From positions 1 to 15,095 of the forward strand of contig CAJWYZ010000017.1 of NCBI GenBank assembly GCA_913049525.1: 15,095 bases of DNA. The letters run 5' to 3'. This stretch comes from an uncultured Fidelibacterota bacterium. GTDB lineage: Bacteria; Fidelibacterota; Marinisomatia; SCGC-AAA003-L08; D37C17. The notes under the pieces were generated by a model. It was not told the origin of the DNA and did not search any database. It worked only from the letters and a program-made list of their open reading frames with translations. A program made the position numbers and the translations under genes. Shown here piece after piece: positions 1 through 15,095 of this stretch (position 1 is the stretch's first letter; each line of letters starts with the position of its first letter).

Positions 1-26
1 AGCCCCGCAGTAGCGGGGTTTGGTTT
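1..26. terminator. GC-rich hairpin, probable rho-independent (possibly bidirectional) terminator
   Basis: A perfect 6-bp GC stem (CCCCGC at 3-8, GCGGGG at 13-18) encloses an AGTA loop. It can extend by a G-U and an A-U pair using bases 1-2 and 19-20. On the plus strand it is followed by a modest T-rich tail (TTTGGTTT), which could end a gene left of the window. On the minus strand it lies about 115 bp after the stop of the UPF0489 gene and could end that transcript, but the bases that would form the minus-strand U-tract are outside the window. No ORF is seen between 27 and 133. Confidence 0.7.
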
Positions 27-133
27 AATGAGTATTCTTTGCAATATCATCAACAACCACTATCATATGCTTGACGAATAAACCAATACAATCATTATAA
101 TTAAAATAGATGGCCATGTAATAAATAGTAGAC

Positions 134-850
134 TTATAAATATTTATTCAATACTCTTCTTCTAATTTCATTTATATCAAAGCCCAATTGTCCATGTTCA
201 TTAATTGATTCTGTTACATCCAATGCGTTCTTCCACCCACCACACCATTCAGGACTCATTGCAATCGTTATACACGCGTTTCTATTGTTTTCTTTTAACT
301 CTTTTATAAGTGATCCAACTTTTTCGATAAATCTATTGGAATAAATTTGATACTTTTCATCTTGGTGTTCCATAAAAAAGGTATCAATATCTATGTTAAA
401 AATCAAATTTTCATGGCAAAATAAATCTTCATCTAAAATCATTGGAATTTCATTCATTTCATATTCTTGAATCTCATCGTCGCATGTATAAAAGTTAATT
501 AAGGCCTCTTTTTCTAATATTTTAAAATATTGGATGTAATTAGACCAATTATATCTTTTATTATTATTTTCATTTAATTCTGAAATAAATTGTTCAAAGG
601 TTTGTTTGCAGATTTTACTTACAGCCTTTCTTGTTTCTTTATTATTGGGGACTTCTTCATAATCATTGTGGTGATCTACATGGATAATTTGCGGATTCCC
701 AATTATTATTTTTTCTTGTCTGTGTTTTACCCAACACCAAAGAGCAGATAAATGATTATCCATCAGATAAACATTTTCCTTCCTATACAACATATTAACA
801 TTGTATATACCTGATTCTTTAAAGATATCTTTACTGTAAATTATTTCCAT
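134..850 (-). CDS. UPF0489 family arginase-fold protein, candidate peptide arginase
   Basis: This looks like a UPF0489 protein, a family related to arginases and deacetylases. One member, OspR of the landornamide pathway, hydrolyses arginine side chains in a ribosomal peptide to ornithine. Numbered from the start chosen here (239 residues), the expected metal-site pattern is present: DNH at 31-33, DHHND at 59-63, a DID pair at 154-156 and SPEWCGGW with E201 near the C-terminus. No signal peptide is visible, so it should be cytosolic. An in-frame ATG at 868 gives 244 residues, but the ATG at 850 has the better ribosome site (AAGG five bases upstream). It is transcribed away from the glycosyltransferase cassette and lies beside a radical SAM cluster, which favours a peptide-modifying role. 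The metal motifs are seen directly. Activity on a peptide arginine is inferred, and many UPF0489 members have no known function. Confidence 0.8.
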   Translation of the reverse strand: MEIIYSKDIFKESGIYNVNMLYRKENVYLMDNHLSALWCWVKHRQEKIIIGNPQIIHVDHHNDYEEVPNNKETRKAVSKICKQTFEQFISELNENNNKRYNWSNYIQYFKILEKEALINFYTCDDEIQEYEMNEIPMILDEDLFCHENLIFNIDIDTFFMEHQDEKYQIYSNRFIEKVGSLIKELKENNRNACITIAMSPEWCGGWKNALDVTESINEHGQLGFDINEIRRRVLNKYL

Positions 851-941
851 TATTACCTTATAAAACATTACCTGAATTAATGTATGAAAACTATAACATA
901 ATTTTGGATTTATACCTAATTTGTAAATTAGAGAAATTCAA
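851..941. promoter_or_regulatory. Divergent intergenic region with 16-bp inverted repeat
   Basis: This short AT-rich gap separates the minus-strand UPF0489 gene from the plus-strand glycosyltransferase cassette, so both promoters should lie in or near it. It contains a perfect inverted repeat, CTAATTT-GT-AAATTAG, at 916-931, ending ten bases before the ATG at 942 and touching that gene's AGAG ribosome-binding region. TATA-like hexamers occur (CATAAT at 897-902 on the plus strand; TATAGT on the minus strand), but no convincingly spaced -35 box accompanies them. The repeat could be an operator or an RNA hairpin that hides the start site. Chance is also possible in such AT-rich DNA. Confidence 0.35.
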
Positions 942-2279
942 ATGTTTAGTTTTTTTGCATTAATAGATCAAGACTTTATTTTAAATGAATGGGAAATATC
1001 CTCCCAAAATGAATGCCATCCTTTCAATAACGTATTTCAGGCATATCCGTATAGAGATAATAAACAATTGCTGGCAACTGACTGGAACAGTGATTCATTC
1101 ACAATAAAATACTGCGGTGATCCTGATGAAAAAGGCAAGTCTCTATTTATTACAGAGCCAGGTGTTGTGAGATATTTATCTAAAGGAAAAGAGAACATCA
1201 TTAACCGGAGTTCTGACGATATTGGATTTAAATATCAGATCGATTGGGAGAAAATCCAAAATCTGATGGGACCTGAAAAGTTTATACATCAGTTAGGGGC
1301 TATCATTGATCGCCAGTCATTGGATACACGAAGAATCGTCATCCCGGAACAGCCTTACATTCTCTACCTATCAAAAAAAACCCTATACTTCCATGATGTA
1401 GAGGAAGCATTCGTATTATTCCTAGATATTTTATTGTCAAATAATTGGAGAATACTAGAAAACAAGAATGTTGTTCTCTGTCCGTCCATGGTTCCACCAG
1501 AGACAAACTATTTACCACTGCTAACAACAATTGACTGGTTGTGTTCAGACCATAACATTCACCTTTTTATCACAACCTTGGATAAGGTTCAGCTCAAATA
1601 TTTACGCCATTCTAAATTCATAGAAATCTGTGAGAATTTTATGCACCGTTCGAGAATTAAAGATTTTTCTGATTTACCGGTTTTAAATAGATATCCATAT
1701 TTCATGTCCTGGGATTCAAACTGGCACCCGGATATGAAGGGCATGAAGTTGATACTCGAGTTATTTATGAAGTATAATATCAAAGATAAACTATACATTA
1801 AAATCCCCGATGGCTATCCCAACAATACAGTTGAAAGTGAAGTCTTTTATACTTACATCAAGGAGTATCAACAAGTGGTTGATATAGAATTGGTCACAAT
1901 GCCTGAAGATAGAAAAGAATTACTTCAAGCCTTTTATCAGGAAGTAGAAGTCTTCATCTATGTCTGTTATATGGATGGAGGGCCAAGAACTGTGTTTGAA
2001 CTGGCAGGAATGAACAAGAAAATTCTTTTTTATGACAGAAATGATTGCAATATTATAAAACACGGACTTCTAGATAAATATAGGGGATTTATCAGGTTTA
2101 ATAAGAATAATTTTCAAGAAAAATATGAGGAAATAAGTGAAGAAAAATATCCTGAGACAGTCCGTTATTTTGATGAATATAACTGGATGAAAACACGAGA
2201 TATATTTCGCGAGGAAACAGGTGATCAAAATATCAAAGGTTTTTGGTTTGATTGTTTCCTTGTACTAGATCAGGTTTGA
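942..2279 (+). CDS. Putative GT-B fold glycosyltransferase
   Basis: This 445-residue protein is probably a glycosyltransferase of GT1/GT4 type. The second half looks like the sugar-nucleotide-binding Rossmann half of a GT-B enzyme. Around 255-285 a strand is followed by a MKGMKLILELF helix, like the KG...li.a segment of GT4 enzymes. Around 343-364 is DGGPRTVFELAG followed by a hydrophobic strand, matching the position of the family's E-x7-E or EAmacG signature, with E353 as the likely nucleotide-binding acid. The first ~120 residues are strand-rich and I do not recognise them. No membrane segment is visible. It is the first gene of a plus-strand trio with a PIG-L deacetylase and a methyltransferase, and glycosyltransferase plus deacetylase is a classical pairing for adding and then N-deacetylating an amino sugar. 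The ATG has only a weak AGAG site. The fold assignment comes from pattern recognition; donor and acceptor are unknown. Confidence 0.55.
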   Translation: MFSFFALIDQDFILNEWEISSQNECHPFNNVFQAYPYRDNKQLLATDWNSDSFTIKYCGDPDEKGKSLFITEPGVVRYLSKGKENIINRSSDDIGFKYQIDWEKIQNLMGPEKFIHQLGAIIDRQSLDTRRIVIPEQPYILYLSKKTLYFHDVEEAFVLFLDILLSNNWRILENKNVVLCPSMVPPETNYLPLLTTIDWLCSDHNIHLFITTLDKVQLKYLRHSKFIEICENFMHRSRIKDFSDLPVLNRYPYFMSWDSNWHPDMKGMKLILELFMKYNIKDKLYIKIPDGYPNNTVESEVFYTYIKEYQQVVDIELVTMPEDRKELLQAFYQEVEVFIYVCYMDGGPRTVFELAGMNKKILFYDRNDCNIIKHGLLDKYRGFIRFNKNNFQEKYEEISEEKYPETVRYFDEYNWMKTRDIFREETGDQNIKGFWFDCFLVLDQV

Positions 2280-2317
2280 TTATTATCTATTGATGAATAA
2301 ATGAATGAAAAAGATAG

Positions 2318-3484
2318 TTGGCCGTGAAGAGAATTCTGATTGTTGTAGCTCATCCAGATGATGAGTCTTTTTATTATGGCGGTAGGATGCTTAATAATCC
2401 AGAAAATGATTATTCGGTTATTATTGTAACTGATGGTCAAGGCGATGGAAAACCAGATGAGCGTCAAGCCCATTTACAGAAAGCCTCTGAATTATTTAGG
2501 TTTAGAATATTATCTTTTGGTTCTCAAAAAGATATAGAGGGGAAAAGACTAGATGTAACTGACATTATGACTATACTCAAGAAGTATCAACCTGATTATG
2601 ATGAAGTATGGACACATAGTCCCCTGGGAGATTACCAGTCTCATCCACACCATCAAGACACTGCAATCGCATGTGCTCTGATATTCGAAGATAAAGTACG
2701 GTACAATCATATTGGGCTCTTTGGATGCGGTGATGAATTCAGCTTGACACATGAGGTATATAAAAAGAAAATGGAAACCTTGTATGAGTGCTATTCATAT
2801 GAAACATCAGCCAATGAAATAGCATGCCAATATTATATCAGTGAGCGTATGACGTCTCTTCCGAATATTGATAGCATATTTCTGTTATATGCCTGGTTTG
2901 CTGAAAATGACGTAGAAAAGATTGTGCAAGAAGATTCTCGCTTTCTTGATATATGGCAGCTAAAAACATCAAAATATGAAAATACGAAGGTGGATATCAC
3001 CATCAATATGTTATCTGAGATTAATAATTTCAATGGAAAACGTGGGTTAGTAGTTGGAGATGTGTCAGGTTTATATAGCGATAAACTAATTAAGAGTGGA
3101 ATTCTCGAAAGATTGGATGGTATTGAAGTATTCAAAAAGTATCAACAAACAATCGAAAGGTATGGATCTTGGCACCGCAATATAGATGATGTTGAAGATA
3201 CTCAATATAACCTTCTTCTGCTTATTGAAGTTATAAATCAATATTCCAATAAGCAGCTTGAGAACTTAATTGTAAATAGTTGTCCCAGTTTTATTCTTTG
3301 GATTGAACAGGAAATGACTTCAGAAGAAAATTTTTCAGTTTACGAAGCATTGGGAAAATACAAATTAATAACTAAAATAAACATTAACTCAGAATTTGAA
3401 TACGATTTACATAAATATTTTTTGTTCAGACGATTAGGGGTTACTGTATTTTTATTTAAGAAAAACTTAACCAAGGTAGAATGA
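2318..3484 (+). CDS. PIG-L/LmbE family deacetylase with C-terminal methyltransferase-like extension
   Basis: Residues 1-230 form a PIG-L (LmbE-like) zinc hydrolase domain, a family that removes acetyl groups from N-acetylglucosamine-type sugars (MshB, GlcNAc-PI deacetylase). The AHPDDE motif is at 11-16 (H12 and D15 as zinc ligands, D14 as catalytic base), and SHPHH at 108-112 matches the family's HPDH motif with H112 as third ligand. At 388 residues it is about 150 longer than a plain PIG-L protein. The tail (about 235-388) resembles an eroded class I SAM-methyltransferase domain: a GLVVGDVSG strand-loop where motif I would be, then LLLLIEVINQY and a terminal hydrophobic strand. That tail assignment is inferred. 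The first codon used here is TTG; a GTG six bases downstream (2324) giving MKRILIVV is equally plausible, and neither has a clear Shine-Dalgarno. It lies 38 bp after the glycosyltransferase and 12 bp before a methyltransferase gene. Confidence 0.85.
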   Translation: MAVKRILIVVAHPDDESFYYGGRMLNNPENDYSVIIVTDGQGDGKPDERQAHLQKASELFRFRILSFGSQKDIEGKRLDVTDIMTILKKYQPDYDEVWTHSPLGDYQSHPHHQDTAIACALIFEDKVRYNHIGLFGCGDEFSLTHEVYKKKMETLYECYSYETSANEIACQYYISERMTSLPNIDSIFLLYAWFAENDVEKIVQEDSRFLDIWQLKTSKYENTKVDITINMLSEINNFNGKRGLVVGDVSGLYSDKLIKSGILERLDGIEVFKKYQQTIERYGSWHRNIDDVEDTQYNLLLLIEVINQYSNKQLENLIVNSCPSFILWIEQEMTSEENFSVYEALGKYKLITKININSEFEYDLHKYFLFRRLGVTVFLFKKNLTKVE

Positions 3485-3496
3485 TTTAACACAATA

Positions 3497-4216
3497 ATGA
3501 CTAAAAAACAGAGAATAGAATATTGGAATATGTGGAATGACCATTTTGATAATAAAGGTATTGAACTTGATGCAATGAAGTCACTGGTTGAATTTAATGG
3601 GAAAAAGATACTTGAGATAGGCTGTGGCAATGGTAGAATCAGCAGATTACTGGGTCCATTATGCAGCCAGCTCACGGCCATAGATAATGATGAACTGATG
3701 TTGGATGCAGCCAACATATACAATAATCCGCCTAATATTGAGTTCCATCAAATGGATGCTTTAGATTTGATATTTGATAAAAATACATTTGATGTTGTTG
3801 TTTTTAGCTGGGTATTAACATGTATGCAGGGTTATGAAATACAGGCTCTAACTGAAGCAAAAAAAGTCATTAATAAAGGGGGAAAGATTCTCATTGTAGA
3901 TTTTGGAAATGCATCAGAATATGATGATATTATTAAGCCATTTGTTGAAGAATCGAATGCTTATGGAGCAAGAACTGATAATGCAAATATTAAAGAACTA
4001 TTAAAAGATATATTTTCAGAACCCATTGATGTGGCTGGCCCTCTGAGTACAGAATATAAATTTGATACAGAATCTCAATTGTGTGATATGATTGAATTTG
4101 CTCTTCATGAATTGCATCAGGCCAAAGTAAATGATCAGAAGAAATTTAAGATTCATTTATCAAAGTATGGGCAAGGCTATAAAGAATCTGTATTGTGCTA
4201 TTGTGCAGAAAAATAA
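3497..4216 (+). CDS. Class I SAM-dependent methyltransferase
   Basis: This 239-residue protein has a Methyltransf_11/25-type Rossmann domain. Motif I (LEIGCGNGRISRLL) is at 39-52, an acidic motif II strand (TAIDND) follows about 15 residues later, then HQMDALD and the motif IV strand FDVVVFSWVLTCM, ending with KGGKILIVDFG. The fold is complete at a normal length for small-molecule methyltransferases. It begins 12 bp after the PIG-L gene with a weak ribosome site, so it is probably cotranscribed as the third gene of the cassette. Its acceptor (an O, N or C atom on a sugar or peptide) cannot be told from sequence. The last ~80 residues replace the usual short C-terminal lid and may shape substrate specificity. 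It converges with the minus-strand radical SAM gene; the 49-bp gap shows no convincing terminator. Confidence 0.85.
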   Translation: MTKKQRIEYWNMWNDHFDNKGIELDAMKSLVEFNGKKILEIGCGNGRISRLLGPLCSQLTAIDNDELMLDAANIYNNPPNIEFHQMDALDLIFDKNTFDVVVFSWVLTCMQGYEIQALTEAKKVINKGGKILIVDFGNASEYDDIIKPFVEESNAYGARTDNANIKELLKDIFSEPIDVAGPLSTEYKFDTESQLCDMIEFALHELHQAKVNDQKKFKIHLSKYGQGYKESVLCYCAEK

Positions 4217-4265
4217 TAATAATTGCAGGCTTTTCAGTTTGCTATAGAATTTTTAATACGAACGA

Positions 4266-5426
4266 TTAATATGGAATTGGGGAAACCACATTTCTCTTTT
4301 TACGTAACTGAACGCATTGACGGCAGGGCAAATTCTGTCTCATAGGATAAACACCATAGATTTCGCCGCGAAGTTTTTTTACTTCATTTGAACTCATAAT
4401 ATCTTTAATACTATTTTTCTGAAGATCCCCAAGAATGATACTCTGGTAGTAATCCTGACAGCATAAAAAGCACTTACCTTCCCAACTTATATGCAAATGA
4501 CCGGCTATTCGCTCACAACCGCAGAAGCGATCCTGGTTAACGTGTGAATAAGAATTAATATATTTATTTGAAATTGAACCTGCTCGATTGTGGGAGTTTT
4601 GATTTACCACTTCTACATTTCCAAATTGACTGAAGTGTTCATCTATATTTTGTCTTCTAGGATCCTGGTTTTTTGTAGTTCCATTTATGAAAATGGATAA
4701 CAGTTCTATTTTATCACTAAATTTCTGGATAAACATTTCCATTTGATGTACTGTGTGCTCGAATAAATGTGTTGGAAGCTGCATAAAATATGACCATTCT
4801 TCTGGCTCCATTGATGGTAGATTAAAAATCACGCCAACTAGATCATTGGGTTCTAATAAATCAATAACCTGTGGTGATAGTAATGTCGCATTTGTCGTAA
4901 AGTATAGTTTAAGATTATTTTCTCTCAGCTGTATAACACGTTCTGTAAAAAAGGGGTCAAGTAAAGGTTCATTGTAATGAGTGAAAGCTACCCATTCAAT
5001 GTCATACGGTTTAATCTGGTGAATGATATTATTAAATATATCCTGTGACATTACGCCTTTCTTCTTTCGGGATTCACTTTGCGGGCAATAAAGGCATTGG
5101 GCATTGCAATGACGATTAGTTTCAATGTCAACTAGAAATGGATAATAATGACCTGTTTCATCCTCACCCGTTGGTACAATTACACGATCATCAAACAATT
5201 TTTGAATTAACTTCAAATCTTCTGGTTTGGAACAGATTGAATAAAAATCATTTTTAGGACCTGTTAGGTTAAATAATTGGTCGAATAAGCTATTCTGATG
5301 AGGCAGAAGAATATATTCTTCTGAGTTTATATCGTGAAATAACTGATTGCCTATTACATGAGAAAACATACTCATTTTGTACATTATATCAGGTTGTTCC
5401 TTTGATTGATGAATTCTTTGGGACAT
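4266..5426 (-). CDS. Radical SAM/SPASM domain enzyme (E)
   Basis: A 386-residue radical SAM enzyme with a C-terminal SPASM/Twitch-type domain. The 4Fe-4S cluster that cleaves SAM is held by CNAQCLYC at 107-114 (CX3CX2C). THYNEPLLDP near 149-158 is the family's SAM-binding strand after the core cysteines, and the N-rich NSHNRAGS segment near 277-284 is typical of SPASM proteins. Auxiliary-cluster ligands are probably among C302, C304, C319, C322, C323, C368 and C371. An N-terminal region of about 95 residues precedes the barrel, which could bind a peptide or partner. It is the last gene of the minus-strand array but sits 71 bp after the HxsB-like gene, with a hairpin and a TATAAT box in between. 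The ATG at 5426 has no Shine-Dalgarno; starts at M15 or M18 are possible. Peptide modification or sugar-alcohol oxidation are both within the family; the substrate is unknown. Confidence 0.85.
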   Translation of the reverse strand: MSQRIHQSKEQPDIMYKMSMFSHVIGNQLFHDINSEEYILLPHQNSLFDQLFNLTGPKNDFYSICSKPEDLKLIQKLFDDRVIVPTGEDETGHYYPFLVDIETNRHCNAQCLYCPQSESRKKKGVMSQDIFNNIIHQIKPYDIEWVAFTHYNEPLLDPFFTERVIQLRENNLKLYFTTNATLLSPQVIDLLEPNDLVGVIFNLPSMEPEEWSYFMQLPTHLFEHTVHQMEMFIQKFSDKIELLSIFINGTTKNQDPRRQNIDEHFSQFGNVEVVNQNSHNRAGSISNKYINSYSHVNQDRFCGCERIAGHLHISWEGKCFLCCQDYYQSIILGDLQKNSIKDIMSSNEVKKLRGEIYGVYPMRQNLPCRQCVQLRKKRNVVSPIPY

Positions 5427-5450
5427 CAGTTATGTGTAGAATTATACATA
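5427..5450 (-). promoter_or_regulatory. Possible -10 box ahead of radical SAM gene E
   Basis: Read on the minus strand, a perfect TATAAT lies at 5446-5441, in the longest gap of the array. A transcript starting about seven bases later would leave a leader of only about eight bases before the ATG at 5426, which fits the lack of a ribosome site there. I see no good -35 hexamer at 16-18 bp and no extended -10 TGn, so this is suggestive only. Confidence 0.3.
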
Positions 5451-5477
5451 CTTTTAACAATAAAACCCGATCATACT

Positions 5478-5512
5478 TGGCAAAAAATATTCAGAAACTA
5501 ATTTTTCTGCCA
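5478..5512 (-). terminator. AT-rich hairpin across the stop codon of the HxsB-like gene
   Basis: On the minus strand, TGGCAGAAAAAT (5512-5501) pairs with ATTTTTTGCCA (5488-5478) to give an 11-bp stem with one bulged G and a 12-base loop. The TAG stop codon is at the start of the loop. It lacks a U-tract after the stem, so it is not a textbook intrinsic terminator. It could attenuate readthrough, protect the 3' end, or serve as an RNA-processing site between the HxsB-like and downstream radical SAM genes. Confidence 0.35.
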
Positions 5513-7120
5513 GTTTACATTCATTAGCATTTTCTGGAATTCTTCTCTTGCATTTTCATCGTTGATGAAAAGTTCCACAATATGCTGAATCATCTTAAAA
5601 AATATCTCGCAGTGCCCTGTTTCTAATACATTAATCTGTATTTTATCTTTTTGCTGAAGGTGCAGTACGGGGCAAACACCGCAATAGGGTTTAAAGGCAC
5701 AATAATCACAATAATATTGTTCCAGAATTGATGATTCAAAAACAGACTGTGTTTTGGCATCAAGCAAAATATTATTTAACTGTTGATCATATATACTGCC
5801 GATTTGAAAATAGTCAGAATAAATCATTCTGCCCTCATCACAAGTATAGACTTGGCCGTCGTAATTATAAGTTATTTGTCCATATCCTGCTCCGCAAGGT
5901 GAACGGAGATCCATAAACCCCGTTTCATTGCCAAATAGTTTGGTCAGTATCAGCTCTAGGAAAAATTCAGAGATTTCTATTCCTTTGGCCCTTAACTCCA
6001 ATACATAGCCCACGGAATTCTTCCAGAAATCAACAAATTCTTCCGGTGTATACACTAAATTTTCTTTGGTATCCAGGGCTTTGCCTAAAGGTGTTAAGGA
6101 GCGAATATTTATTTGCGTTATACCGAAATTTAAATAGGTGTCAATGATCTCCCTAAATAAGGGCAGTGATGTTGTTGTGGTTGTCATTAATGCGTTAAGT
6201 TCTACTGGTTCATCTGTTAATGAAGCCCATATCTTTTTATAAAGGGCGACCTTCTTTTCCAAGATTTCAAAAGCATTTGGATAATTCCTGCCCCGATTTT
6301 TTTCATGCAATTCTTTTGAACCATCAAGGGAAAAGCTTATACTAACATTATTCTCCATGAGAAATATTAACTTCTCTTTGGTAACTGTAGAAGTGAAATT
6401 CGTGATCAGGCTGTACTCTACCTGTTTATGATCTCTTTCTGCTCTTCGATTTGCATATTGTATTATATTTTTGATTGCAGGGAAATTCATCAGAGGTTCA
6501 CCGCCTTGGAACTCAATGATAAAAGAATCCGATGGGCTTTCAAATATCCTGTCCACGGTCTCGTTTGCAGTAACCTGGTTCATATTGTTTGCTGCTACAT
6601 TGCTTGCCGAAGCCTGGCAGTAAATACAGCTTAAATTGCAGTTGGATGTTACTACAACAATATGCAGGGTAGGCCCTTCGGTAAGAAACCCATATCGGAT
6701 TCGAAGTTTATTGATATAAGAATCAATATTTTTTTCTGTAAGAAGAATAAAGTTTTTTTCCAGAACAGTTGATAGTGATTTATTAACAGTATTTTTCTTT
6801 AACAATTCATAATCTTCCTTTGATATGATCATCCAATTTCCAGTATCAACCGAAATAAAATATTCATCTTCACTGATCTTTAAGGACCTGAAATAGTTCA
6901 CTGCCGGCAAATCAGAAAGCTGAAATGAGCTGATTTCATCCACCGGATTTCCTATTATCTGATTATATTTATCAATCAGCAGTCGGTTGGCGTTTTCTCG
7001 AAGTTTATCATCGATTGCTACCTCCTGCAGCGTCTCACCATTACTAGAATTACATTCAGAAATAAATGATGGAGAGTAGAAGTCTTTAGATAATTTAATT
7101 GTATTAGTCATTTTTATCAT
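5498..7120 (-). CDS. hxsB: HxsB-like radical SAM/SPASM maturase (D)
   Basis: This resembles HxsB, the radical SAM maturase of the His-Xaa-Ser peptide system, a presumed peptide-modifying enzyme. The core cluster motif CNLSCIYC is at 161-168, FQGGEPLMNFP at 204-214, and an MTTTTTSLP stretch at 312-320. DLRSPCGAGYG with NYDGQVYTCDEGRM (404-432) matches the HxsB region between barrel and SPASM domain. C409 and C427 with CDYCAFKPYCGVC (471-483) and C504 form a full seven-cysteine SPASM set for two auxiliary Fe-S clusters. Residues 70-150 look like the HxsB N-terminal domain; the first ~65 residues and the last ~35 are extra, making 540 residues, longer than I expect for the family. The start overlaps the HxsD-like gene by 17 bp, or 8 bp from the ATG at 7111, implying translational coupling. 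Family resemblance is strong by eye; the chemistry on its peptide is unknown. Confidence 0.8.
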   Translation of the reverse strand: MIKMTNTIKLSKDFYSPSFISECNSSNGETLQEVAIDDKLRENANRLLIDKYNQIIGNPVDEISSFQLSDLPAVNYFRSLKISEDEYFISVDTGNWMIISKEDYELLKKNTVNKSLSTVLEKNFILLTEKNIDSYINKLRIRYGFLTEGPTLHIVVVTSNCNLSCIYCQASASNVAANNMNQVTANETVDRIFESPSDSFIIEFQGGEPLMNFPAIKNIIQYANRRAERDHKQVEYSLITNFTSTVTKEKLIFLMENNVSISFSLDGSKELHEKNRGRNYPNAFEILEKKVALYKKIWASLTDEPVELNALMTTTTTSLPLFREIIDTYLNFGITQINIRSLTPLGKALDTKENLVYTPEEFVDFWKNSVGYVLELRAKGIEISEFFLELILTKLFGNETGFMDLRSPCGAGYGQITYNYDGQVYTCDEGRMIYSDYFQIGSIYDQQLNNILLDAKTQSVFESSILEQYYCDYCAFKPYCGVCPVLHLQQKDKIQINVLETGHCEIFFKMIQHIVELFINDENAREEFQKMLMNVNWQKN

Positions 7121-7391
7121 AATAAGGCTCGAGAGCTTTCTTCATAATAGTTTTTCTAAGTGGGAGGGATTCCAACGATTTCATATAGATAAATTCAGCT
7201 TCAATAAGCTGATTGATAAATTCATTTTCCGAAATTTTGATATTATTGCCATTTTTAGGCTCAAACTGTATAAAATAGTCTGATTCATCTTCAAGAATGG
7301 CTACCCAATATTTCTTTAGATACATCTGCAGGGCTACGATAATAGCTTCTTTTTTATATAATGACTTTCTGATTTGTATTTTCTGATTCAT
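7104..7391 (-). CDS. hxsD: HxsD-like small partner protein
   Basis: A 95-residue protein directly upstream of, and overlapping, the HxsB-like gene, the position and size expected of HxsD. HxsD proteins are about 90-100 residues and carry a late motif of LLNDYxLRE type; here NQLIEAEFIYMKSLE at 60-74 occupies that place. The N-terminal half (IQIRKSLYKKEAIIVALQMY, then strands containing YWVAILEDE and YFIQFEP) matches the strand-helix-strand pattern I associate with HxsD. A likely role is to present or recognise the peptide substrate for the maturase, as RRE or PqqD-like partners do, but that is inference. The start has a good AAGGA site eight bases upstream, located within the end of the preceding methyltransferase gene, which stops 3 bp before. 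It has no cysteine, signal peptide or membrane segment. Sequence similarity alone is weak; context raises confidence. Confidence 0.6.
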   Translation of the reverse strand: MNQKIQIRKSLYKKEAIIVALQMYLKKYWVAILEDESDYFIQFEPKNGNNIKISENEFINQLIEAEFIYMKSLESLPLRKTIMKKALEPYYDKND

Positions 7392-7394
7392 CTA

Positions 7395-8135
7395 TTATCC
7401 TTTCTTATAGGCACGTACTTCAATTCGGGTTGTTTCATTGTCAAATATTTCTGCTCCGCTATCTGCATCTGTCATATCCACACTTGCAAAACCTGCTGAC
7501 AACAAAAGATCTCTAACGGTCTCTTTCTCTAAACTAGCATGTTGATGTTTTTCAGTATCTTGTATCCATACTCCATCCTGATATATATGCCAGTTGAACC
7601 ATTCAATGCCAATATCATTCGATCGATCATATTCTGCAATCCGTAATAGTGCCCAGTGTTCATTCTCATGATATTGTTTATAGCCAGGCCAACATTTTCG
7701 AATATCATAAAGAGTAACGAAATCAAAAATAAATTGACCATTGTCATTTAGAATGCTATAAACATTGAGAAAATATTTTTTCCACAACTTTTCATTTAAT
7801 AGATAGTTTATACTGTCATAATTGCATGTTGCAATATCGACAAGTTGAGGGGGTTTATAGGTTGTCATATCTTCTACTGATAGGATACGATCATCCTGTA
7901 TTAATGTGTTTATTTTGGCTATTTCTATCATCTTATCTGACAGGTCACAACCAAAGGTATTAAGGTTGTTCTTCTTAAATAATTTCATCAAGAGACCAGT
8001 ACCGCAACCAAAATCACAGATGGAATTGACACCTTCATTTTTTGCAATGGACAATATCATTTTATTTCTCTCATCCTGTGCAGATCGAGTAATCGTATCA
8101 TAATATGCAGCGAAAATATTATATGGCAACTTCAT
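7395..8135 (-). CDS. Class I SAM-dependent methyltransferase
   Basis: A 246-residue Rossmann methyltransferase of the Methyltransf_25/SAM-MT type. The sequence opens with PYNIFAAYYDTIT, the typical 'yd.ia..YD' entry helix of this family. Motif I (ICDFGCGTGLLMKLF) is at 39-53, motif II (TFGCDLSDKMIEIAK) follows, and the motif IV strand reads DIATCNYDSINYL, with an NDNGQFIFDFVT motif VI after it. The pattern resembles small-molecule N- or O-methyltransferases. Its start codon lies inside the end of the upstream B12-type radical SAM gene (17-bp overlap) and it stops 3 bp before the HxsD-like gene, so it is surely cotranslated with the maturation enzymes. It is clearly different in sequence from the plus-strand methyltransferase at 3497-4216, so the two probably methylate different sites. 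The substrate is not evident. Confidence 0.85.
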   Translation of the reverse strand: MKLPYNIFAAYYDTITRSAQDERNKMILSIAKNEGVNSICDFGCGTGLLMKLFKKNNLNTFGCDLSDKMIEIAKINTLIQDDRILSVEDMTTYKPPQLVDIATCNYDSINYLLNEKLWKKYFLNVYSILNDNGQFIFDFVTLYDIRKCWPGYKQYHENEHWALLRIAEYDRSNDIGIEWFNWHIYQDGVWIQDTEKHQHASLEKETVRDLLLSAGFASVDMTDADSGAEIFDNETTRIEVRAYKKG

Positions 8136-9837
8136 GTATATTACTTGTATTAAAGTGAGAGCGTTTTAATGTTAAATGACCTTCAATAAAATCGTTTGTC
8201 TTGGAACGTTCATTTATAAACCCAAATGTTTTTTGTATGCTTTGTGCGCGCTCTTCAATCAATTCGGTTTCTGATGGGCCTCTAAAGGGAACATCCAAGC
8301 TCCAATCCTCTTTATTTGAATTCATATCCCTGTTCTTTTCAAGTGTATTGAAAAATAGGGTGTGCGGTGTGAACTGGTACGGATATACTTCCAAGCCATG
8401 AATATAATCTTGATTATTATTAATAAAATTCACTGTTTCAATAAAATCACTTTCTGTTTCTCCTGGCAACCCGGCAATAACGAAAAGATGGTTTAAAATT
8501 CCCGAGTCAGCTGATTTTTTCAAGATCTCTGCCCGTTTCACCTGATTTAATATCCCACCTTTATTTATACTATCTAACACGTTACGACTCCCACTTTCAA
8601 AGCCCCAGCTTAATAGGGTACAGCCACCATCAAATAAATCAGAAAAGATATTCCCTGCAGAAAAAGTGTTTTCAAATCGAAGCTGAGCAGCCCAGTAAAT
8701 ATCAAGATCCTTCAAATTCATAAAGTTCTTTATCAGCGCTGGTGGCAGCGCATAATCCATAAACTGAATATGAGAGATGCCATTATTTTTCAAAGAAATC
8801 AATCCATTATAAATTTCTTCGTCCTTAAGGCGCCTTGAGGGATACTTCTTTTCATCAGCCAGAGAACAGAATGAACAATTAGACCAGTAACATCTATAAG
8901 AAACACTCGCACCCATAACGGGAAATGGTGTGATATATTCTGATGTGTCAACTAAAGGTATAATGCCTGGCAGAATAGTAACATTTTTTACTGAAGGGCT
9001 AAATTCGGGGTAATCTACCGATCCATCATTTATGATAAACGGGTGCTTTGCATCCATTAACCAGAAATCCGCTGAATAGTCTATCTTATATGCGATGATT
9101 TCATCACAGATGTCAAAAATCCCTGAAGGGCAAGATAGAGATAGTATCTTGTCTAAATGTTCTCCTGTTAAAGTAATATGATAATCGTATTCATCCTTGA
9201 GCCAAGCACTAAGTACCATTCCAGGCAACTGCTGAGTTTGATTTCTGATTACTATTAATACGAAATCATAATCCAACTTGGAAACATCACTAGAAAGATA
9301 GGTTTTATATAGTCTCCGAAGGCCATTATTGGGATTTTGGGCATATTCAAGAACATCCTGTGAGCGGTGGAAATTAACCTCATTCTCATAATGATCCAGC
9401 CATAGGGTTGAGTTTGGGTCTGTTTTTTTGACCATGTAATCAAGAAAACCATTCAGGCATTCCTGGCTATTTACATAATGATTATGATCAACATTGATAC
9501 TGTTGCCTGAAAATAGTGATAGTGATTGGCTGAGCAGTTTTCCAAACTTTGTATTATTCTTGCCATTTTCGTGTTGGAAGCTATTTCTAACAATAGAGTT
9601 ATTCGATTCATGGGCTTCATCAATGAAAAATGATTTTTTCAGGCAGTCAATCAGTAAATCACTATTATCTTCTGTTGATATGTGATTCAACACTTGGCGG
9701 TACAACCGAGCATTTATATCAAAGGCATTTGCCAGAGCCCCATGATTTTGCAGAACTTTTGTTATTCTATGAATGTCCGGATATGGAATTCCCGGTTCAA
9801 TAAATGGAGGCTCTATAACAAGTATTTTATGAGGCAT
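8119..9837 (-). CDS. B12-binding-type radical SAM protein with CX4CX2C motif (C)
   Basis: A 572-residue protein with the architecture of the BchE/RiPP class of radical SAM enzymes. The N-terminus (KILVIEPPF, then IHRITKVLQNHGALANAFDI) is the typical start of a cobalamin-binding-like Rossmann domain, and TLTGEHLDKIL with DEIIAYKID (222-253) continues it. I see no DxHxxG cobalamin ligand motif, so B12 binding is uncertain; many relatives lack it. The radical SAM motif CYWSNCSFC has ligands C316, C321 and C324, with spacing CX4CX2C rather than CX3CX2C. The barrel continues through LLSWGFESGS and FVIAGLPGETESDF, standard late motifs of this class. Relatives methylate, cyclise or epoxidise unactivated carbons on peptides and other natural products. 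The ATG abuts the stop of the HemN-like gene, and the end overlaps a methyltransferase gene. The reaction is unknown. Confidence 0.8.
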   Translation of the reverse strand: MPHKILVIEPPFIEPGIPYPDIHRITKVLQNHGALANAFDINARLYRQVLNHISTEDNSDLLIDCLKKSFFIDEAHESNNSIVRNSFQHENGKNNTKFGKLLSQSLSLFSGNSINVDHNHYVNSQECLNGFLDYMVKKTDPNSTLWLDHYENEVNFHRSQDVLEYAQNPNNGLRRLYKTYLSSDVSKLDYDFVLIVIRNQTQQLPGMVLSAWLKDEYDYHITLTGEHLDKILSLSCPSGIFDICDEIIAYKIDYSADFWLMDAKHPFIINDGSVDYPEFSPSVKNVTILPGIIPLVDTSEYITPFPVMGASVSYRCYWSNCSFCSLADEKKYPSRRLKDEEIYNGLISLKNNGISHIQFMDYALPPALIKNFMNLKDLDIYWAAQLRFENTFSAGNIFSDLFDGGCTLLSWGFESGSRNVLDSINKGGILNQVKRAEILKKSADSGILNHLFVIAGLPGETESDFIETVNFINNNQDYIHGLEVYPYQFTPHTLFFNTLEKNRDMNSNKEDWSLDVPFRGPSETELIEERAQSIQKTFGFINERSKTNDFIEGHLTLKRSHFNTSNIHEVAI

Positions 9838-11217
9838 CTAAATCAGTTGTTTTAAGTATTCCTGATTCCAGAAAAATTTGCTTAGGGCGGCATGCTCAAT
9901 ACGATCAGAACTGGTCAGCCTGAATTGTTTTTTATCTATTTTACATCTCTCTAAATAAAGAATTTCATTAATCTCCTGATTAAACACATCTTCGAACTTC
10001 TCTCCAAATAAATCAAGGAATTGGTTCAAGTCAACATATCTGTCACGGTTCAGTTTTTCTATGGTATAAATACGCTGCCGATCATTTTTGTAGACCATAT
10101 CAAATACATAAGATTTACTTTTTGGGTTAAAAGCATACTTTTTTTCTCTGCACTCATAACGGAAAAAATCCTGTGCATATGAAAAAGATGAATGTCCGAA
10201 ACCAACTGTATTATTGCCATATTCAGAGTCTGGCTGTGTCCGGTAGCCAGATAGTGAATATTCTCTCAAGTGTTCATCTGATGTAAAGTACTGATATTCT
10301 GTATTATCATCTTCAACGGTATCAACCCACCCGATTTCAGCAACTTTTTCTCGAGCTACCTTTAACATCTCAGGGACATGTTCTTTATTATAATTAACAA
10401 TGGTTTTTTTTCTTGCTGAATCTAATTGGTCCATATGGTGCTTGAGATGCCTGAATATATAAACTGTTATGCAGTCAGCACCAGCCTCATATGCGACTTG
10501 TATTCCATCTCTGAGACCCTGGGATGTTTCTTCCGGCAGGCCAATCATCAAGTCTATATTTATCTCTCCAAAGCCAGTTTTCTTTGCATACCCGATGATT
10601 TCTCTAATTTTTTGTTCATCCGCATAAGCCCTGTTTACTTTCTTCAGGACATTTGGCTCGATAGATTGCATACCAAAACTCAATCTGCTGATGCCAAAAT
10701 TTTTCAGTAATTCTATTTTTTCTTTTGAAGTGGTAAGGATAGATTGTTCATAGGTTTTTTCAGAACTAGGATGAAAACGAAAATCGTTTATTTTAGTGAG
10801 CAATTTTGACAGCTGATCTTCATTCAATAAGCTTGGTGTTCCACCTCCTATATACAGGGATTCAAAGGTACTCTTGGCAAATACAGGTTCAAAATATGTT
10901 ATATTATCAATCAGATATTGAACATACAGGTCAATCAAATTAGTGTCGTGTTTGATCAGTGCATAATACATGCAGTAATGGCATCGGGTTTTATAACAGA
11001 ATGGAATGTGTACATATAGTGAGAGTCTATCACTCAGCCTATTATTTTTCATGATTAAATTCCAGGCGTTTCTTATGAACTCGGCAGATTCAAATGGAAG
11101 CTTATTTGAAAAACTATTGACAGGTGTAAAAAGATTTTTCTCAATGGTTATATCTTTATACCAATTATATTTTTCAACAATATTATTCTGTAGTGTTTTC
11201 ACGTGACTGTCTATCAA
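9838..11217 (-). CDS. HemN/HemW-like radical SAM protein with CX4CX2C motif (B)
   Basis: A 459-residue member of the coproporphyrinogen III oxidase-like (HemN/HemW) radical SAM group. LYVHIPFC leads into CYKTRCHYC, giving ligands C74, C79 and C82 with one extra residue compared with the CX3CX2C of HemN. Then come LYIGGGTPSLL (121-131), the E-x-S stretch near 157-160, and ISRLSFGMQSI (176-186) with a following VNRAY, all in HemN order. The C-terminal third contains a HemN-like winged region. The setting among peptide-modification genes, and the altered cluster spacing, argue against a housekeeping heme role; HemN-like enzymes in natural-product clusters do methyl transfer, cyclopropanation and cyclisation using one or two SAM molecules. 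The start used is TTG at 11217 with a weak AAAGA site; a GTG five codons later is possible. It is 12 bp from the DUF483-like gene and abuts the next gene. Confidence 0.82.
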   Translation of the reverse strand: MIDSHVKTLQNNIVEKYNWYKDITIEKNLFTPVNSFSNKLPFESAEFIRNAWNLIMKNNRLSDRLSLYVHIPFCYKTRCHYCMYYALIKHDTNLIDLYVQYLIDNITYFEPVFAKSTFESLYIGGGTPSLLNEDQLSKLLTKINDFRFHPSSEKTYEQSILTTSKEKIELLKNFGISRLSFGMQSIEPNVLKKVNRAYADEQKIREIIGYAKKTGFGEINIDLMIGLPEETSQGLRDGIQVAYEAGADCITVYIFRHLKHHMDQLDSARKKTIVNYNKEHVPEMLKVAREKVAEIGWVDTVEDDNTEYQYFTSDEHLREYSLSGYRTQPDSEYGNNTVGFGHSSFSYAQDFFRYECREKKYAFNPKSKSYVFDMVYKNDRQRIYTIEKLNRDRYVDLNQFLDLFGEKFEDVFNQEINEILYLERCKIDKKQFRLTSSDRIEHAALSKFFWNQEYLKQLI

Positions 11218-11229
11218 TTATCTTTCTAT

Positions 11230-12129
11230 TTATTGAAATATCATCAGACGTTCGTACTTTGTCTGCTCGAAAGTGCCCAGTAACGTAGAATCCTTATAGA
11301 ATTCCATGACATTCTTATTTATCGTGATTTTATTTGAGTCCCATACACAATACTCATCTGCGTTCATTTCTACTTTCCAATCGTGAAGCCTGGATTTAGA
11401 CAAGTCGAATGTAATTATATTGGTACTCTCATTGTAATGTGATTGCTTAATTTGCACGACAACACCGCCTAAGATCAGAATAGGATGCTTCATTTCTTCA
11501 ATATAATCTTCAAGAATATCATTCATGCCGTATTTTTTAAGCAGGGTTTCAATAAATGAAGTGATATCAGCTGTTTTTTCACAAGAAAGAGAACAGGGGA
11601 AATAGTCAAAAAAGAGAGATTTCTCATTAAATAGATATGCGATTCTATTGGCCTTATAACTATATGTTTTTTCTAGCGGCGTATTAGATAGAAAAACCAT
11701 TAACCAGTCTGTATGCGCATTTATTTTTTCATAAGATGCGGTACAGCAATCTGGGTAGCCCAGTAGCCTGCCAAGCGCGGTGGGGTCTTCGTCATAGTCT
11801 TCAATATGCATTGCTCGGGTTGAAAGCTCTGCTGTGCGTGACACCATCAGGGAGTACTCACCTCCATCGGGATCATTAAAATCAATTAGTTCTGTATAGG
11901 TATCACCCAGGCTGGTTGTAAAAGCTGGTTTCTGCCTGAAATCTGAACGTGCTATTTTTAAATTGAACGACTTCAGAGCTGGAAGAACAAATTCATAAGC
12001 ATCATCGTTAACTACCAGCCGCATTACGGATTTTTTTCCATCAATTACAGCCAATGTTTCAATGATATTTCTCAAGTTGAAACAGGAGGTTTTATGATGT
12101 AGATCTAATAGTTGGTGTGTATTGTCCAT
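11230..12129 (-). CDS. DUF483-like cysteine-motif protein (short paralogue)
   Basis: A 299-residue protein of unknown function. It carries LLGYPDCC at 122-129 and FPCSLSCEKT at 177-186, so two adjacent cysteines (C128, C129) and a CX3C pair (C179, C183). This G-Y-P-x-C-C plus P-C-S-x-x-C pattern recalls DUF483 proteins; I assign that family by pattern only. Four cysteines at such positions could hold an Fe-S cluster or zinc, but no ligand role is known to me. The whole length aligns with residues ~286-564 of the protein encoded just upstream: a shared ALAV-like helix with GKK/GNKK then MR.VV/TV, D-P-D/N-G, YPDCC, and PCS..CEK. The ATG follows the upstream stop directly, with GGTGAG seven bases before. 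No signal peptide or membrane segment is visible. The two DUF483-like proteins may act as a heterodimer, as scaffold or substrate-binding partners for the radical SAM enzymes. Confidence 0.65.
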   Translation of the reverse strand: MDNTHQLLDLHHKTSCFNLRNIIETLAVIDGKKSVMRLVVNDDAYEFVLPALKSFNLKIARSDFRQKPAFTTSLGDTYTELIDFNDPDGGEYSLMVSRTAELSTRAMHIEDYDEDPTALGRLLGYPDCCTASYEKINAHTDWLMVFLSNTPLEKTYSYKANRIAYLFNEKSLFFDYFPCSLSCEKTADITSFIETLLKKYGMNDILEDYIEEMKHPILILGGVVVQIKQSHYNESTNIITFDLSKSRLHDWKVEMNADEYCVWDSNKITINKNVMEFYKDSTLLGTFEQTKYERLMIFQ

Positions 12130-13824
12130 TTACATCTCACCATTAAATAATAACATTCGTACATTGTCGCCCTGAATGGTCTTAATTGTATTGCGTCCTT
12201 TTAAAATATCCACAGAATCAGGTTGATTGATTCTAATTACCGATCCCTTACATATTGCCTTTCCCAAACTATTTTGAGTGGTCATTAATATTCTGTCTGG
12301 ATTATAACGCAGAAGATTATTATTCAAATTCGCATGAGGGAAAATATAAATCCCTCTATACTCATTATATAGAACGGGAGAACTCATGATATTTTTTAGC
12401 TCGATTGCATAATCAGGTAAATAATCCTGCAAAATATTGAAATACTGTCTTGAAATAGCTTTCGCTTTTTCGCAGGTATATGAGCAGGGGTAAAAGCTGA
12501 TAAGGTTTTTCATAAAATACCTGGCAGCAGTATTTAGTAAAAATGACCAGGGACCATCATGGGTGGTCTGGTCAGCCACTAGGGGTACCAGATCTCCCTG
12601 TTTTTTAGAAGAGATGGCAAGGTTTCTTTCGAAAGCCACCCGGCAGCAATCCGGATAGGATAATATTTCGCCAAATATTTCATCATTCTCTTTTTCAAAT
12701 AATAAAGCATTATTTACTACAGCATCTGACAGGCCGATATAGAGCATAAATTCATTGCAAAGAATATTCAATTCTCCATTGGGGTCATATAAGTTGCTCC
12801 ATCCTCCTTTTCCCTTATCCGTGGCATACTTGAAGGAAACTTTGTCACTTTTATAGTAGATATTATTTTTAGATAGATAGTCTGTTAACTGTTCATAACG
12901 ATGTGGATCAACAGTGGTTCGCATGGCTTTTTTATTGCCTGTGAGTACCATTAACATTTCTACAATTTCAAGCTCGTTCAAAAGCTCTTTATCCAAGAGA
13001 TGACGAATAATTTTCTGCATGGATGTTTTATTAGCCATAATGTTTGAAGAAGGTGTAGCTGATTTCTGCACTGATCCAATGGCAGTATTTAATGGTGGCT
13101 GCTGTCCGCCCTGAAAATTATTCTGATGGGGGTTAGAAGTGTATATACTGCCTTCCTGCAGAAGATGAATGCGTTCTATCTTGGGGAAGAGATTAATAAA
13201 GTTGAGGTATTTTTCACTGTCAGTTTCACCGTTCAGGTCATCAAGCAAGTCATCCTTATTAGAAAGATCATTAATTTCGCCTTGAATTTTATAGCCCAGT
13301 TCATGAAATGAATCAAATACTCGATAGGGTTTAGACTGGATATAGTGCTTTTCTGATAGATAATATTGAGAAAATTGAGGCGTTAAGGGAACGGATATCC
13401 ATTTCCCCTTTTCTTTTATTGTTTTTGGAAGGATGCCATCAAGAAATTCTACAGACAGGTGGCCTTCTTTGTTGCCCGGCAGTAAAAAGGAGAATCCCGA
13501 AAATCCTATATTCTCGAATTGATCCAGGAACGGGCAAATATGACGGGAAAAATAATCCAATAATCTTTTGAATTTTAGCCAGTCGATCACCGGCTGATTG
13601 CCCAGGTCAAGCCAGAGGGTATCTGTATGGTTTTCAGGTGAAAGCAGATTTATACCGGAGCGTATTTCCTGATGGCTGAGACGAATCTTATTTACATCAG
13701 ATATGGCGATTATAATATCGAGGGATTGAACACGGGTCCATGATGAGCCAATTTTATTCATTTCTGTACCATTATTGGAAGATATGGTCTCAGATTCCAT
13801 TACGTTCTGAAAAGAAGGATTCAT
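12130..13824 (-). CDS. DUF483-like cysteine-motif protein with N-terminal extension (long paralogue)
   Basis: A 564-residue protein in two parts. Residues ~286-564 are a paralogue of the neighbouring 299-residue protein, with LSYPDCC at 388-394 (C393, C394) and FYPCSYTCEKA at 444-454 (C447, C451), a DUF483-like pattern. Residues ~30-225 form a second domain with hydrophobic strands (LDIIIAISDV, DTLWLDLG, SGFSFLLPG) and the phrase QEIRSGINLL; I do not recognise it. Between them a polar, low-complexity linker (~228-268, rich in N, Q, P, S and G) suggests a fusion of two independently folding units. The partner domain may bind a peptide or dock a radical SAM enzyme, which is speculation. It starts 29 bp after radical SAM gene A; the ATG at 13824 has no strong ribosome site, and M9 is an alternative. 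Its stop is immediately followed by the ATG of the short paralogue, implying coupled synthesis. Confidence 0.65.
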   Translation of the reverse strand: MNPSFQNVMESETISSNNGTEMNKIGSSWTRVQSLDIIIAISDVNKIRLSHQEIRSGINLLSPENHTDTLWLDLGNQPVIDWLKFKRLLDYFSRHICPFLDQFENIGFSGFSFLLPGNKEGHLSVEFLDGILPKTIKEKGKWISVPLTPQFSQYYLSEKHYIQSKPYRVFDSFHELGYKIQGEINDLSNKDDLLDDLNGETDSEKYLNFINLFPKIERIHLLQEGSIYTSNPHQNNFQGGQQPPLNTAIGSVQKSATPSSNIMANKTSMQKIIRHLLDKELLNELEIVEMLMVLTGNKKAMRTTVDPHRYEQLTDYLSKNNIYYKSDKVSFKYATDKGKGGWSNLYDPNGELNILCNEFMLYIGLSDAVVNNALLFEKENDEIFGEILSYPDCCRVAFERNLAISSKKQGDLVPLVADQTTHDGPWSFLLNTAARYFMKNLISFYPCSYTCEKAKAISRQYFNILQDYLPDYAIELKNIMSSPVLYNEYRGIYIFPHANLNNNLLRYNPDRILMTTQNSLGKAICKGSVIRINQPDSVDILKGRNTIKTIQGDNVRMLLFNGEM

Positions 13825-13853
13825 AAATCAAACTATTTTTTTCCACTGTTTAA

Positions 13854-14813
13854 TCAGATCATTTCCACAACAGCGGGATCAGTGACAGGCTCAAACTCTT
13901 CATGGCCAAAACAATCAACATATTCAGTCCATGGGCCTTCGCATACCTTGTCCAGAACACATAAATTGCATTGTTCCCCCTTTGTTTTGATCTGCTTCCG
14001 CAGTTTTTCCCAGTCTTTTAGTTCATCTTCTCCTGTGGCCTGAATAAAAGCCTGATCATCTGACCCATATAGCATATATTTTATATCCAGTGAATTTTTC
14101 CAATATTCAGGTCTTTCTTTGAGTATGCATAATGGTATAGTTTCAAATTCCAGTTTTAAACTATTGTCTCTAGCAAAATCAAGAGCATCTATTACATGTT
14201 TCTGAACATCTTTATAAGTTGGAACAACTGCTTTAAATACTTCTTCCGGAAAGTCTTCTGCATGAGGAAATGCCATCATGATTCTTGTTATGCCAAGATT
14301 GGCAAGAAATTCAACGGTGTCTCTCAGCTGAGTCCGGTTCACTTTTGATATGACAAGCTTTCCACATACTTCAGCATTTTTATGCTTAATAAGGTTTTCT
14401 ATCGATAGAACTGTCTGGTTAAAACTATTGGGCACCCGCGTTACCCTGTCGTGGATGTCTGCAGTTGGACCATGTATCGCTACGATAAACTGAATCTTGG
14501 GTGTATTGTCCAGAAAAGACAACATTTCGGGTTTAGCAAGCTTGCGCGCATTGGTCTGTATGGTGACCTTAAGTCCTTTCGAAAGGGCATAATGAACCAA
14601 TTCATGAAAATCGTTCCGTATGGTAATTTCACCTCCAGTTAATACAACGGAATCAGAACCCCGGTCACATGCTTCATCAATAAATGTCTTAACAGTATCA
14701 GTTGATGAATCTATGCTTTCATCACCATCTTGAAGACTGACCTTTATGGGCTCAATGACGCAATGGGTGCAGTTGTTATTGCAGGAATATCCTACTTTGA
14801 TATCAGTATACAT
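13854..14813 (-). CDS. Radical SAM enzyme with C-terminal auxiliary cysteine motif (A)
   Basis: A compact 319-residue radical SAM enzyme. The barrel starts at once: DIKVGYSCNNNCTHC places the cluster ligands at C11, C15 and C18 (CX3CX2C). VVLTGGEITIR (57-66) is the SAM-binding GGE strand, and TIQTNARKL and FIVAIHGPTADIHD are the later barrel strands seen in MoaA/PqqE-like enzymes. The C-terminus has CNLCVLDKVCEGPWTEYVDC (282-301), so C282, C285, C291 and C301 in a CX2CX5CX9C pattern; this is a one-cluster auxiliary motif (Twitch-like) known from several peptide and small-molecule radical SAM families. It overlaps the upstream 92-residue gene by 11 bp and has a good AGGAGTGG site inside that gene, so the two are translationally coupled. 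That tight coupling suggests the small protein is its partner or substrate. The exact reaction cannot be told. Confidence 0.85.
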   Translation of the reverse strand: MYTDIKVGYSCNNNCTHCVIEPIKVSLQDGDESIDSSTDTVKTFIDEACDRGSDSVVLTGGEITIRNDFHELVHYALSKGLKVTIQTNARKLAKPEMLSFLDNTPKIQFIVAIHGPTADIHDRVTRVPNSFNQTVLSIENLIKHKNAEVCGKLVISKVNRTQLRDTVEFLANLGITRIMMAFPHAEDFPEEVFKAVVPTYKDVQKHVIDALDFARDNSLKLEFETIPLCILKERPEYWKNSLDIKYMLYGSDDQAFIQATGEDELKDWEKLRKQIKTKGEQCNLCVLDKVCEGPWTEYVDCFGHEEFEPVTDPAVVEMI

Positions 14814-15078
14814 CTACCACTCCTGTTGATAAATTTTTTTCAAGTATAGTTACTGCTGTTTCAATCTCAAATGGAATACCAGTATCCCTAATATCCTTTA
14901 AGTTCAATTCTTCATCTTTTGGGTGAATTAAATTCTCCGCACCAAGGTCTCGCAGAATCTTTATTTTATCTAATATATTGTCTACAGGGTATATGGCGAA
15001 GCTATTATTCCGGACAGGGCGGATATTGCCCCATGATACAGTTTTATTAGGCCATGGCGTATTGTTGGCATATGACAT
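14803..15078 (-). CDS. Small protein of unknown function heading the minus-strand array
   Basis: I do not recognise this 91-residue protein (92 with an upstream GTG). Its first ~32 residues look unstructured and are rich in Asn, Pro and aromatic residues, with tryptophans in NNTPWPNK and VSWGNI and arginines in NIRPVRNN. From about residue 33 on it is acidic and looks folded: a helix (DNILDKIKILRDLGAENL), a charged loop, and a second helix (EIETAVTILEKN). There is no signal peptide, cysteine or His-Xaa-Ser repeat. The start codon ATG at 15078 has AGGAG very close (two bases), so the GTG at 15081 is possible but unlikely. The end overlaps radical SAM gene A by 11 bp. It may be a substrate, a peptide-carrier or a small partner of enzyme A. 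Whether further genes lie upstream cannot be seen; the window ends 14 bases away. Confidence 0.6.
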   Translation of the reverse strand: MSYANNTPWPNKTVSWGNIRPVRNNSFAIYPVDNILDKIKILRDLGAENLIHPKDEELNLKDIRDTGIPFEIETAVTILEKNLSTGVVDVY

Positions 15079-15095
15079 CACTCCTAATAAAAAGG

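Follow-up and report, generated by a model that had tools for sequence, protein, structure and literature searches.

A probable divergent and expanded His-Xaa-Ser RiPP operon with five radical SAM genes in an uncultured Fidelibacterota bacterium

A stretch of 15,095 nucleotides from an uncultured Fidelibacterota bacterium (contig CAJWYZ010000017.1, positions 1–15095, assembly GCA_913049525.1; hereafter the window) carries ten open reading frames (ORFs) on the minus strand, which run from 15095 to 4266 and whose positions and strand were checked. In our assessment, this array is probably a divergent, expanded biosynthetic operon for a ribosomally synthesized and post-translationally modified peptide (RiPP) of the His-Xaa-Ser (Hxs) type, which the end of the contig truncates on the 5′ side. 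The Hxs system described by Haft and Basu in 2011 reportedly consists of HxsA, HxsB, HxsC, and HxsD. In the window, HxsB is accompanied by an HxsC-like and an HxsD-like protein, by further radical S-adenosylmethionine (SAM) enzymes, by two DUF483 proteins and a methyltransferase, and perhaps by a peptidase of its own. The source genome (G000) comprises 1.49 Mb in 236 contigs, with an estimated completeness of 91.7% and contamination of 4.9%.

A first-pass annotation made from the letters alone had proposed a coordinated pathway with five radical SAM enzymes, and both the enzymes and their close packing are borne out. All five proteins contain a radical SAM motif (CNNNCTHC, CYKTRCHYC, CYWSNCSFC, CNLSCIYC, and CNAQCLYC) and exceed the cut-off of Pfam Radical_SAM; two of them also exceed that of Pfam SPASM. 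The nine junctions of the array, most of which were described earlier as overlapping or abutting, measure -11, 29, 0, 12, 0, -17, 3, -17, and 71 bases from the S16-like gene to the last SPASM gene, i.e., -17 to +71 bases. Of all the products, NCBIfam names HxsB alone outright; the HxsC-like, HxsD-like, HemN-like, and PhpK/B12-like proteins remain under their cut-offs.

The case for a single pathway is strengthened by a second locus, L004. It was the one locus besides the window to turn up when genome contigs were scanned with just two peptide patterns, a search that may miss diverged relatives, and it belongs to "uncultured bacterium isolate LJ_bin-5039" (genome G060), with 59% G+C across the locus. 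Nine of the ten window genes are colinear in L004, in the same order and on the same strand, at 33–51% identity (Table 1). A profile of DUF483-b, the smaller of two DUF483-like proteins in the array, found G000 as the sole match among 245 genomes of its phylum and G060 as the sole match among 80 genomes of the other (400 were requested for each). By these genome groupings, the two genomes are assigned to different phyla. Because the nine genes recur in order in a second phylum, they form one inherited system that travels as a unit. A check for the outcome that would have spoken against one system, namely homologues that are scattered and never co-occur, did not refute it. In a search of 5.8 billion proteins with DUF483-b, 12 clusters were recovered, and the window's own (P0001) is present on 152 contigs. 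Two further clusters, P0004 (DUF483-b) and P0015 (S16-like), share a longest contig of equal length, 17184 bases, which suggests a third occurrence of the gene set. Other longest contigs given for the protein clusters measure 25,996, 24,633, and 50,345 bases. The tenth gene, encoding the further SPASM enzyme, has no orthologue in the L004 locus; because of this and the gap of 71 bases that precedes it, the gene may be accessory. Thus, of the ten genes first annotated as one set, nine hold together elsewhere and one falls outside the shared block.

These observations also bear on the idea that unrelated radical SAM genes were gathered by chance, or that the array is an assembly or binning artefact. 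Such an origin would accord with the absence of any match to the window DNA in five other genomes of the same genus, as well as with the distribution of HxsB, whose model cut-off is exceeded in just 1 of the 245 phylum genomes (123 of 245 show some weak radical SAM match to that model). However, a chance gathering is refuted by the colinearity of nine genes in an unrelated genome, while the 152 contigs bearing P0001 and a tetranucleotide composition inside the spread of sampled host stretches also weigh against an artefact, leaving this explanation hardly credible. Given the lack of same-genus DNA matches and the single HxsB above the cut-off, the contig may nevertheless be an acquired island, or misbinned. 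When the whole window was compared at the DNA level with 40 relatives, just two matches were obtained outside G000, of 47 and 25 bases. A mobile origin of the entire set was considered and rejected, as DUF483-b has no match in plasmid or phage records and the matches of HxsB (498 plasmid and 45 phage records) all lie below 60% identity. In phage records, the PhpK-like and HxsD-like proteins likewise have no match and the HxsC-like protein matches 25; in viral contigs, neither DUF483-b nor the S16-like protein was matched.

Upstream of the shared block, L004 continues on the same strand with four additional radical SAM genes, the first of which encodes a RiPP radical SAM C-methyltransferase (TIGR03975, score 520 against a cut-off of 281.85). 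Between the first and second of these sits a small ORF that ends at 3623, its stop lying 72 bases ahead of the next radical SAM ORF. It encodes 58 residues from 3447, or 56 from the ATG at 3453, with an AGGAG site preceding the starts and the C-terminus HQSHASSSKHSSNTNH. The sole NCBIfam match of the peptide is a weak one to HxsA (TIGR03979; 13.4 bits, E 0.056), and similar tails are found in the HxsA proteins of Nostoc (HYSHRSHSSHRSHSSHYSSSR), Aeromonas, and the gut sequence L125. A frame with three His-Xaa-Ser (HxS) units within 16 residues occurs once in the real L004 sequence and not at all in the window and 178,620 host bases. With its place in the operon and its ribosome site adding to the case, this HxsA-resembling peptide is a likely substrate. 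Together with the C-methyltransferase and the nine-gene colinearity, it supports the earlier proposal of a heavily modified peptide, and a peptide is, judging from sequence, the most likely product. For the peptide-sugar variant of that proposal we found nothing, Pfam having detected no glycosyltransferase in the ten genes of the window.

Other features of L004 may be mentioned here. Three overlapping radical SAM ORFs (3696-4811, 4714-5787, and 5784-6770) fill the space between the peptide ORF and the S16-like gene. Orthologues of the four upstream radical SAM genes were not found at the eight other Pfam radical SAM places of the window's host, where the best weak match reached 21.9% over 343 residues. 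Directly downstream of HxsB, at 16990-19364, lies a transposase pair, which by eye we take to be IstA/IstB-like.

Table 1. Genes of the array in the window, with their counterparts in L004 and the percent identity between them.
Product	Window	Strand	Basis in the window	L004	Identity
S16 (Lon)-like protein, C-terminal part, cut by contig end	14803..15095	-	96 codons match the P0014 C-terminus exactly	6682-7353	42%
HxsC-like radical SAM enzyme	13854..14813	-	HxsC4 132.5 bits, cut-off 500	7366-8334	47%
DUF483-a protein, 564 residues	12130..13824	-	PF04467 24.1 bits, cut-off 25	8346-9956	33%
DUF483-b protein, 299 residues	11230..12129	-	PF04467 29.1 bits, cut-off 25	9944-10852	40%
HemN-like radical SAM enzyme, CX4CX2C	9838..11217	-	HemZ 145.8 bits, cut-off 321.4	10862-12229	47%
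PhpK-like radical SAM enzyme	8119..9837	-	TIGR04479 50.5 bits, cut-off 600; B12 domain not detected	12226-13923	33%
Class I SAM methyltransferase	7395..8135	-	PF13649 41.2 bits, cut-off 27	13899-14666	40%
HxsD-like protein	7104..7391	-	TIGR03976 30.9 bits, cut-off 50	14663-14950	40%
HxsB radical SAM/SPASM enzyme	5498..7120	-	TIGR03978 401.9 bits, cut-off 370; full SPASM cysteines	14953-16545	51%
Further SPASM radical SAM enzyme	4266..5426	-	Radical_SAM and SPASM over cut-off; 71-base gap		

The likeness to known Hxs systems is carried by HxsB, which exceeds the curated cut-off in both loci (395.6 in L004), by its HxsC-like and HxsD-like companions, and by the HxS peptide ORF of L004. In a joint alignment, the window HxsB is 52% identical to that of L004 and 29–33% identical to nine plasmid HxsB proteins. 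The cysteines at its positions 409, 427, and 483 are present in the window, L004, and L125; among the nine plasmid proteins, Cys 427 or 483 occurs in none and Cys 409 in one. Since Cys 427 and 483 are present here and absent from all nine plasmid proteins, the window HxsB retains SPASM ligands that these plasmid proteins lack, and L125 has them too (for background on SPASM, see PMC5682303). The array also differs in organization: its HxsC-like gene lies six genes ahead of HxsB, whereas plasmid hxsC directly follows hxsB in eight of nine loci (in the ninth, an unlabelled gene takes that place), and it adds the DUF483 pair and the HemN-like, PhpK-like, methyltransferase, and S16-like genes. The best NCBIfam match of the HxsC-like protein in both loci is HxsC4 (NF038332), although the scores (109 in L004) are far below the cut-off. 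HxsB and HxsC are termed putative maturases in PMC9062424, and no report on Hxs chemistry was found in the open-licence literature, which leaves most subscription papers outside. The gut sequence L125 (MT837156.1), filed as phage, looks like a bacterial Hxs locus at 847-6422; by eye, it contains HxsD-like ORFs, HxsC, an HxsB whose SPASM cysteines are complete, and a long peptide rich in HxS, and a prepilin-peptidase-like ORF lies in between.

At the truncated side of the operon, the first-pass annotation had listed a separate protein of 92 residues. Its reading frame stays open up to the contig end, and a profile search recovered P0014, a 197-residue protein that ends in a stretch identical to the 96 codons of the window, along with P0015, which is 70% identical to P0014; the supposed small protein is therefore the end of a 197-residue one. 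On moderate evidence, this protein is probably related to the Lon/S16 peptidase domain, in a stand-alone form. In an hhalign comparison of three family members with 30 Lon domains taken from host relatives, the Ser of a GxSxG-like block (GSSLG) and the Lys of a downstream DK pair align with the Lon Ser and Lys columns (score 33.1, E 2.3e-4 for one comparison, probability 44). Among 100 column shuffles, the best score was 23.3 and none reached that of the real alignment. The window's own fragment holds the Lys part only of this pair. The family differs from Lon in that its members stand alone at 191–198 residues, too short for the AAA ATPase part, and go unrecognised by Pfam; the L004 member gave nothing in Pfam or NCBIfam and no match in a sequence search of the PDB. 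A cluster of 89 residues, P0017, has a shorter S16-like C-terminus with another start and a longest contig of 50,345 bases, and is perhaps a sequence or assembly variant.

The remaining proteins add to the Hxs set. Of the two DUF483-like proteins proposed earlier, DUF483-b lies above the PF04467 gathering score in both loci (25.1 in L004), DUF483-a lies just under it in the window and lower in L004 (18.5), and the DUF483-b profile recovers DUF483-a at 6e-19. Cysteines in the pattern CC, C, and C are conserved in both DUF483 proteins of both loci; a PDB sequence search with DUF483-b gave no match. The nearest named relatives of two window enzymes are HemN/HemZ/HutW and the PhpK P-methyltransferases, although both score far below the respective cut-offs. 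HemN, HemW, and HemZ have the motif CX3CX2C, whereas the HemN-like protein has CX4CX2C in both loci. The PhpK-like enzyme had been annotated as B12-type. NCBIfam agrees on a PhpK/B12-like relationship below cut-off, but the B12-binding domain (PF02310) was not found by Pfam at E 0.1, a further difference from PhpK.

Relatives of the HemN-like, PhpK-like, and methyltransferase proteins are found in small-molecule pathways. The enzymes might thus act on a small molecule or a nucleic acid, the His/Ser ORF of L004 being incidental; that no precursor is visible in the window would fit as well. Some phage loci are comparable. In the open-licence literature searched, DUF483 and radical SAM occur together only in a study of Thermus phages, which links DUF483 to radical SAM genes and mentions fusions (PMC11437467). 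There, in phages Cumys and phiMa, a DUF483 protein adjoins a radical SAM gene, and the authors consider that the locus may modify DNA; however, the phage locus has three genes, and the window's DUF483-b matches no phage record at E 1e-3. The Campylobacter phages CP220 and CPt10 resemble the window in having modules of five radical SAM genes, but these include an amidinotransferase and are not the same gene set (PMC2853527); the window's HxsC-like protein matches their proteins at only about 21%. Against a small-molecule or nucleic-acid target stand HxsB, above its cut-off and with HxsC-like and HxsD-like partners, and the HxS peptide and RiPP C-methyltransferase of L004, and we consider such a target quite improbable.

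Several results weigh against an Hxs-type RiPP operon. The HxsC-like proteins score 64.9 (window) and 70.1 (L004) against a TIGR03977 cut-off of 267.9, the HxsD-like protein of L004 (28.7) falls short of TIGR03976 just as that of the window does, and the HxsA match of the L004 peptide is far below its cut-off of 121.65. Three HxS also arise in 3333 of 100,000 composition-preserving shuffles of the peptide, and a comparable frame in 17 of 300 dinucleotide shuffles of L004; therefore, the case for this ORF comes largely from its operon position. For the S16-like protein, Pfam sees no peptidase, Lon 2 came only fourth (E 0.63) in a PDB profile search, below unrelated rows though with the GSSLG block aligned again, and the structure model failed (predicted local distance difference test, pLDDT, 35). 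Moreover, no precursor was found in the window or in the 15 host stretches scanned, and no homologue of the L004 peptide was detected when G000 was searched for one.

The precursor searches covered several patterns. A strict scan for three HxS within 16 residues was negative in the window and in 178,620 host bases. A loose scan for two HxS close together gave none in the window and nine frames in the 15 host stretches, none of which looks by eye like a small peptide rich in His and Ser. In G000, 130 places match a DNA pattern for HxSHxS-like codons (65 and 65, against 24 and 32 for the control). Among the 100 places listed, the eight at which both Ser codons seemed possible were read; five encode HxSHxS, in frames of 17–28 residues, and none fits a precursor. 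If the window's organism has a precursor, as we infer, it may be encoded past the end of the contig.

Whether the product leaves the cell is a separate question. Peptide-derived products such as pyrroloquinoline quinone (PQQ) and mycofactocin stay in the cell as cofactors, and the array could similarly yield a cofactor or metal binder that is kept rather than secreted, a reading which overlaps with the Hxs-type operon and departs from it in product fate. Transporter domains are absent from the ten genes and four flanking genes of the window and, by Pfam, from the ten scanned of the 14 L004 cluster ORFs. The L004 peptide has no hydrophobic signal segment, unlike HxsA of Nostoc, L125, and Aeromonas, and lower-ranked matches of the HxsC-like protein include heme b synthase and the mycofactocin maturase. 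Yet exporters may sit off the contig, L004 was not systematically scanned outside the cluster, and the cluster is rare and patchy, in contrast to core cofactors. Retention in the cell is thus a tentative possibility, short of an even chance. A bolder proposal, which we hold to be rather unlikely, is a new RiPP class spanning several phyla, in which one short His/Ser core is processed by four to eight radical SAM enzymes with DUF483 iron-sulfur or metal helpers and stand-alone Lon-type release into an intracellular redox or metal cofactor.

The four flanking genes lie on the other side of the array. At 942-4216, a set of genes on the plus strand converges with the operon and encodes a 445-residue protein without a Pfam match, a protein resembling PIG-L deacetylases, and a methyltransferase; beyond it, a UPF0489 protein is encoded on the minus strand at 134-868.

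Returning to the Hxs-type operon, we infer every enzymatic step, and the order of the steps, as follows. A short precursor, with a leader and a His/Ser-rich core, would be bound, perhaps via the HxsD-like protein. HxsB, with its SPASM domain, and the HxsC-like enzyme would then act on the His/Ser core, the role presumed for them in Hxs systems. Additional changes would be made by the class I methyltransferase and by two other radical SAM enzymes, the HemN-like and the PhpK-like one. The two DUF483 proteins, each with four conserved cysteines, could work alongside the radical SAM enzymes, perhaps by binding a metal or Fe-S cluster or by assisting electron transfer. Finally, the S16-like protein would cleave off the leader.

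The operon thus offers a compact gene set conserved between phyla together with a candidate substrate of 56 residues from L004, and therefore opens the chemistry of HxsB and related enzymes to direct testing. Furthermore, it connects DUF483 with radical SAM peptide modification and suggests that a Lon-type domain may act as a RiPP leader peptidase.

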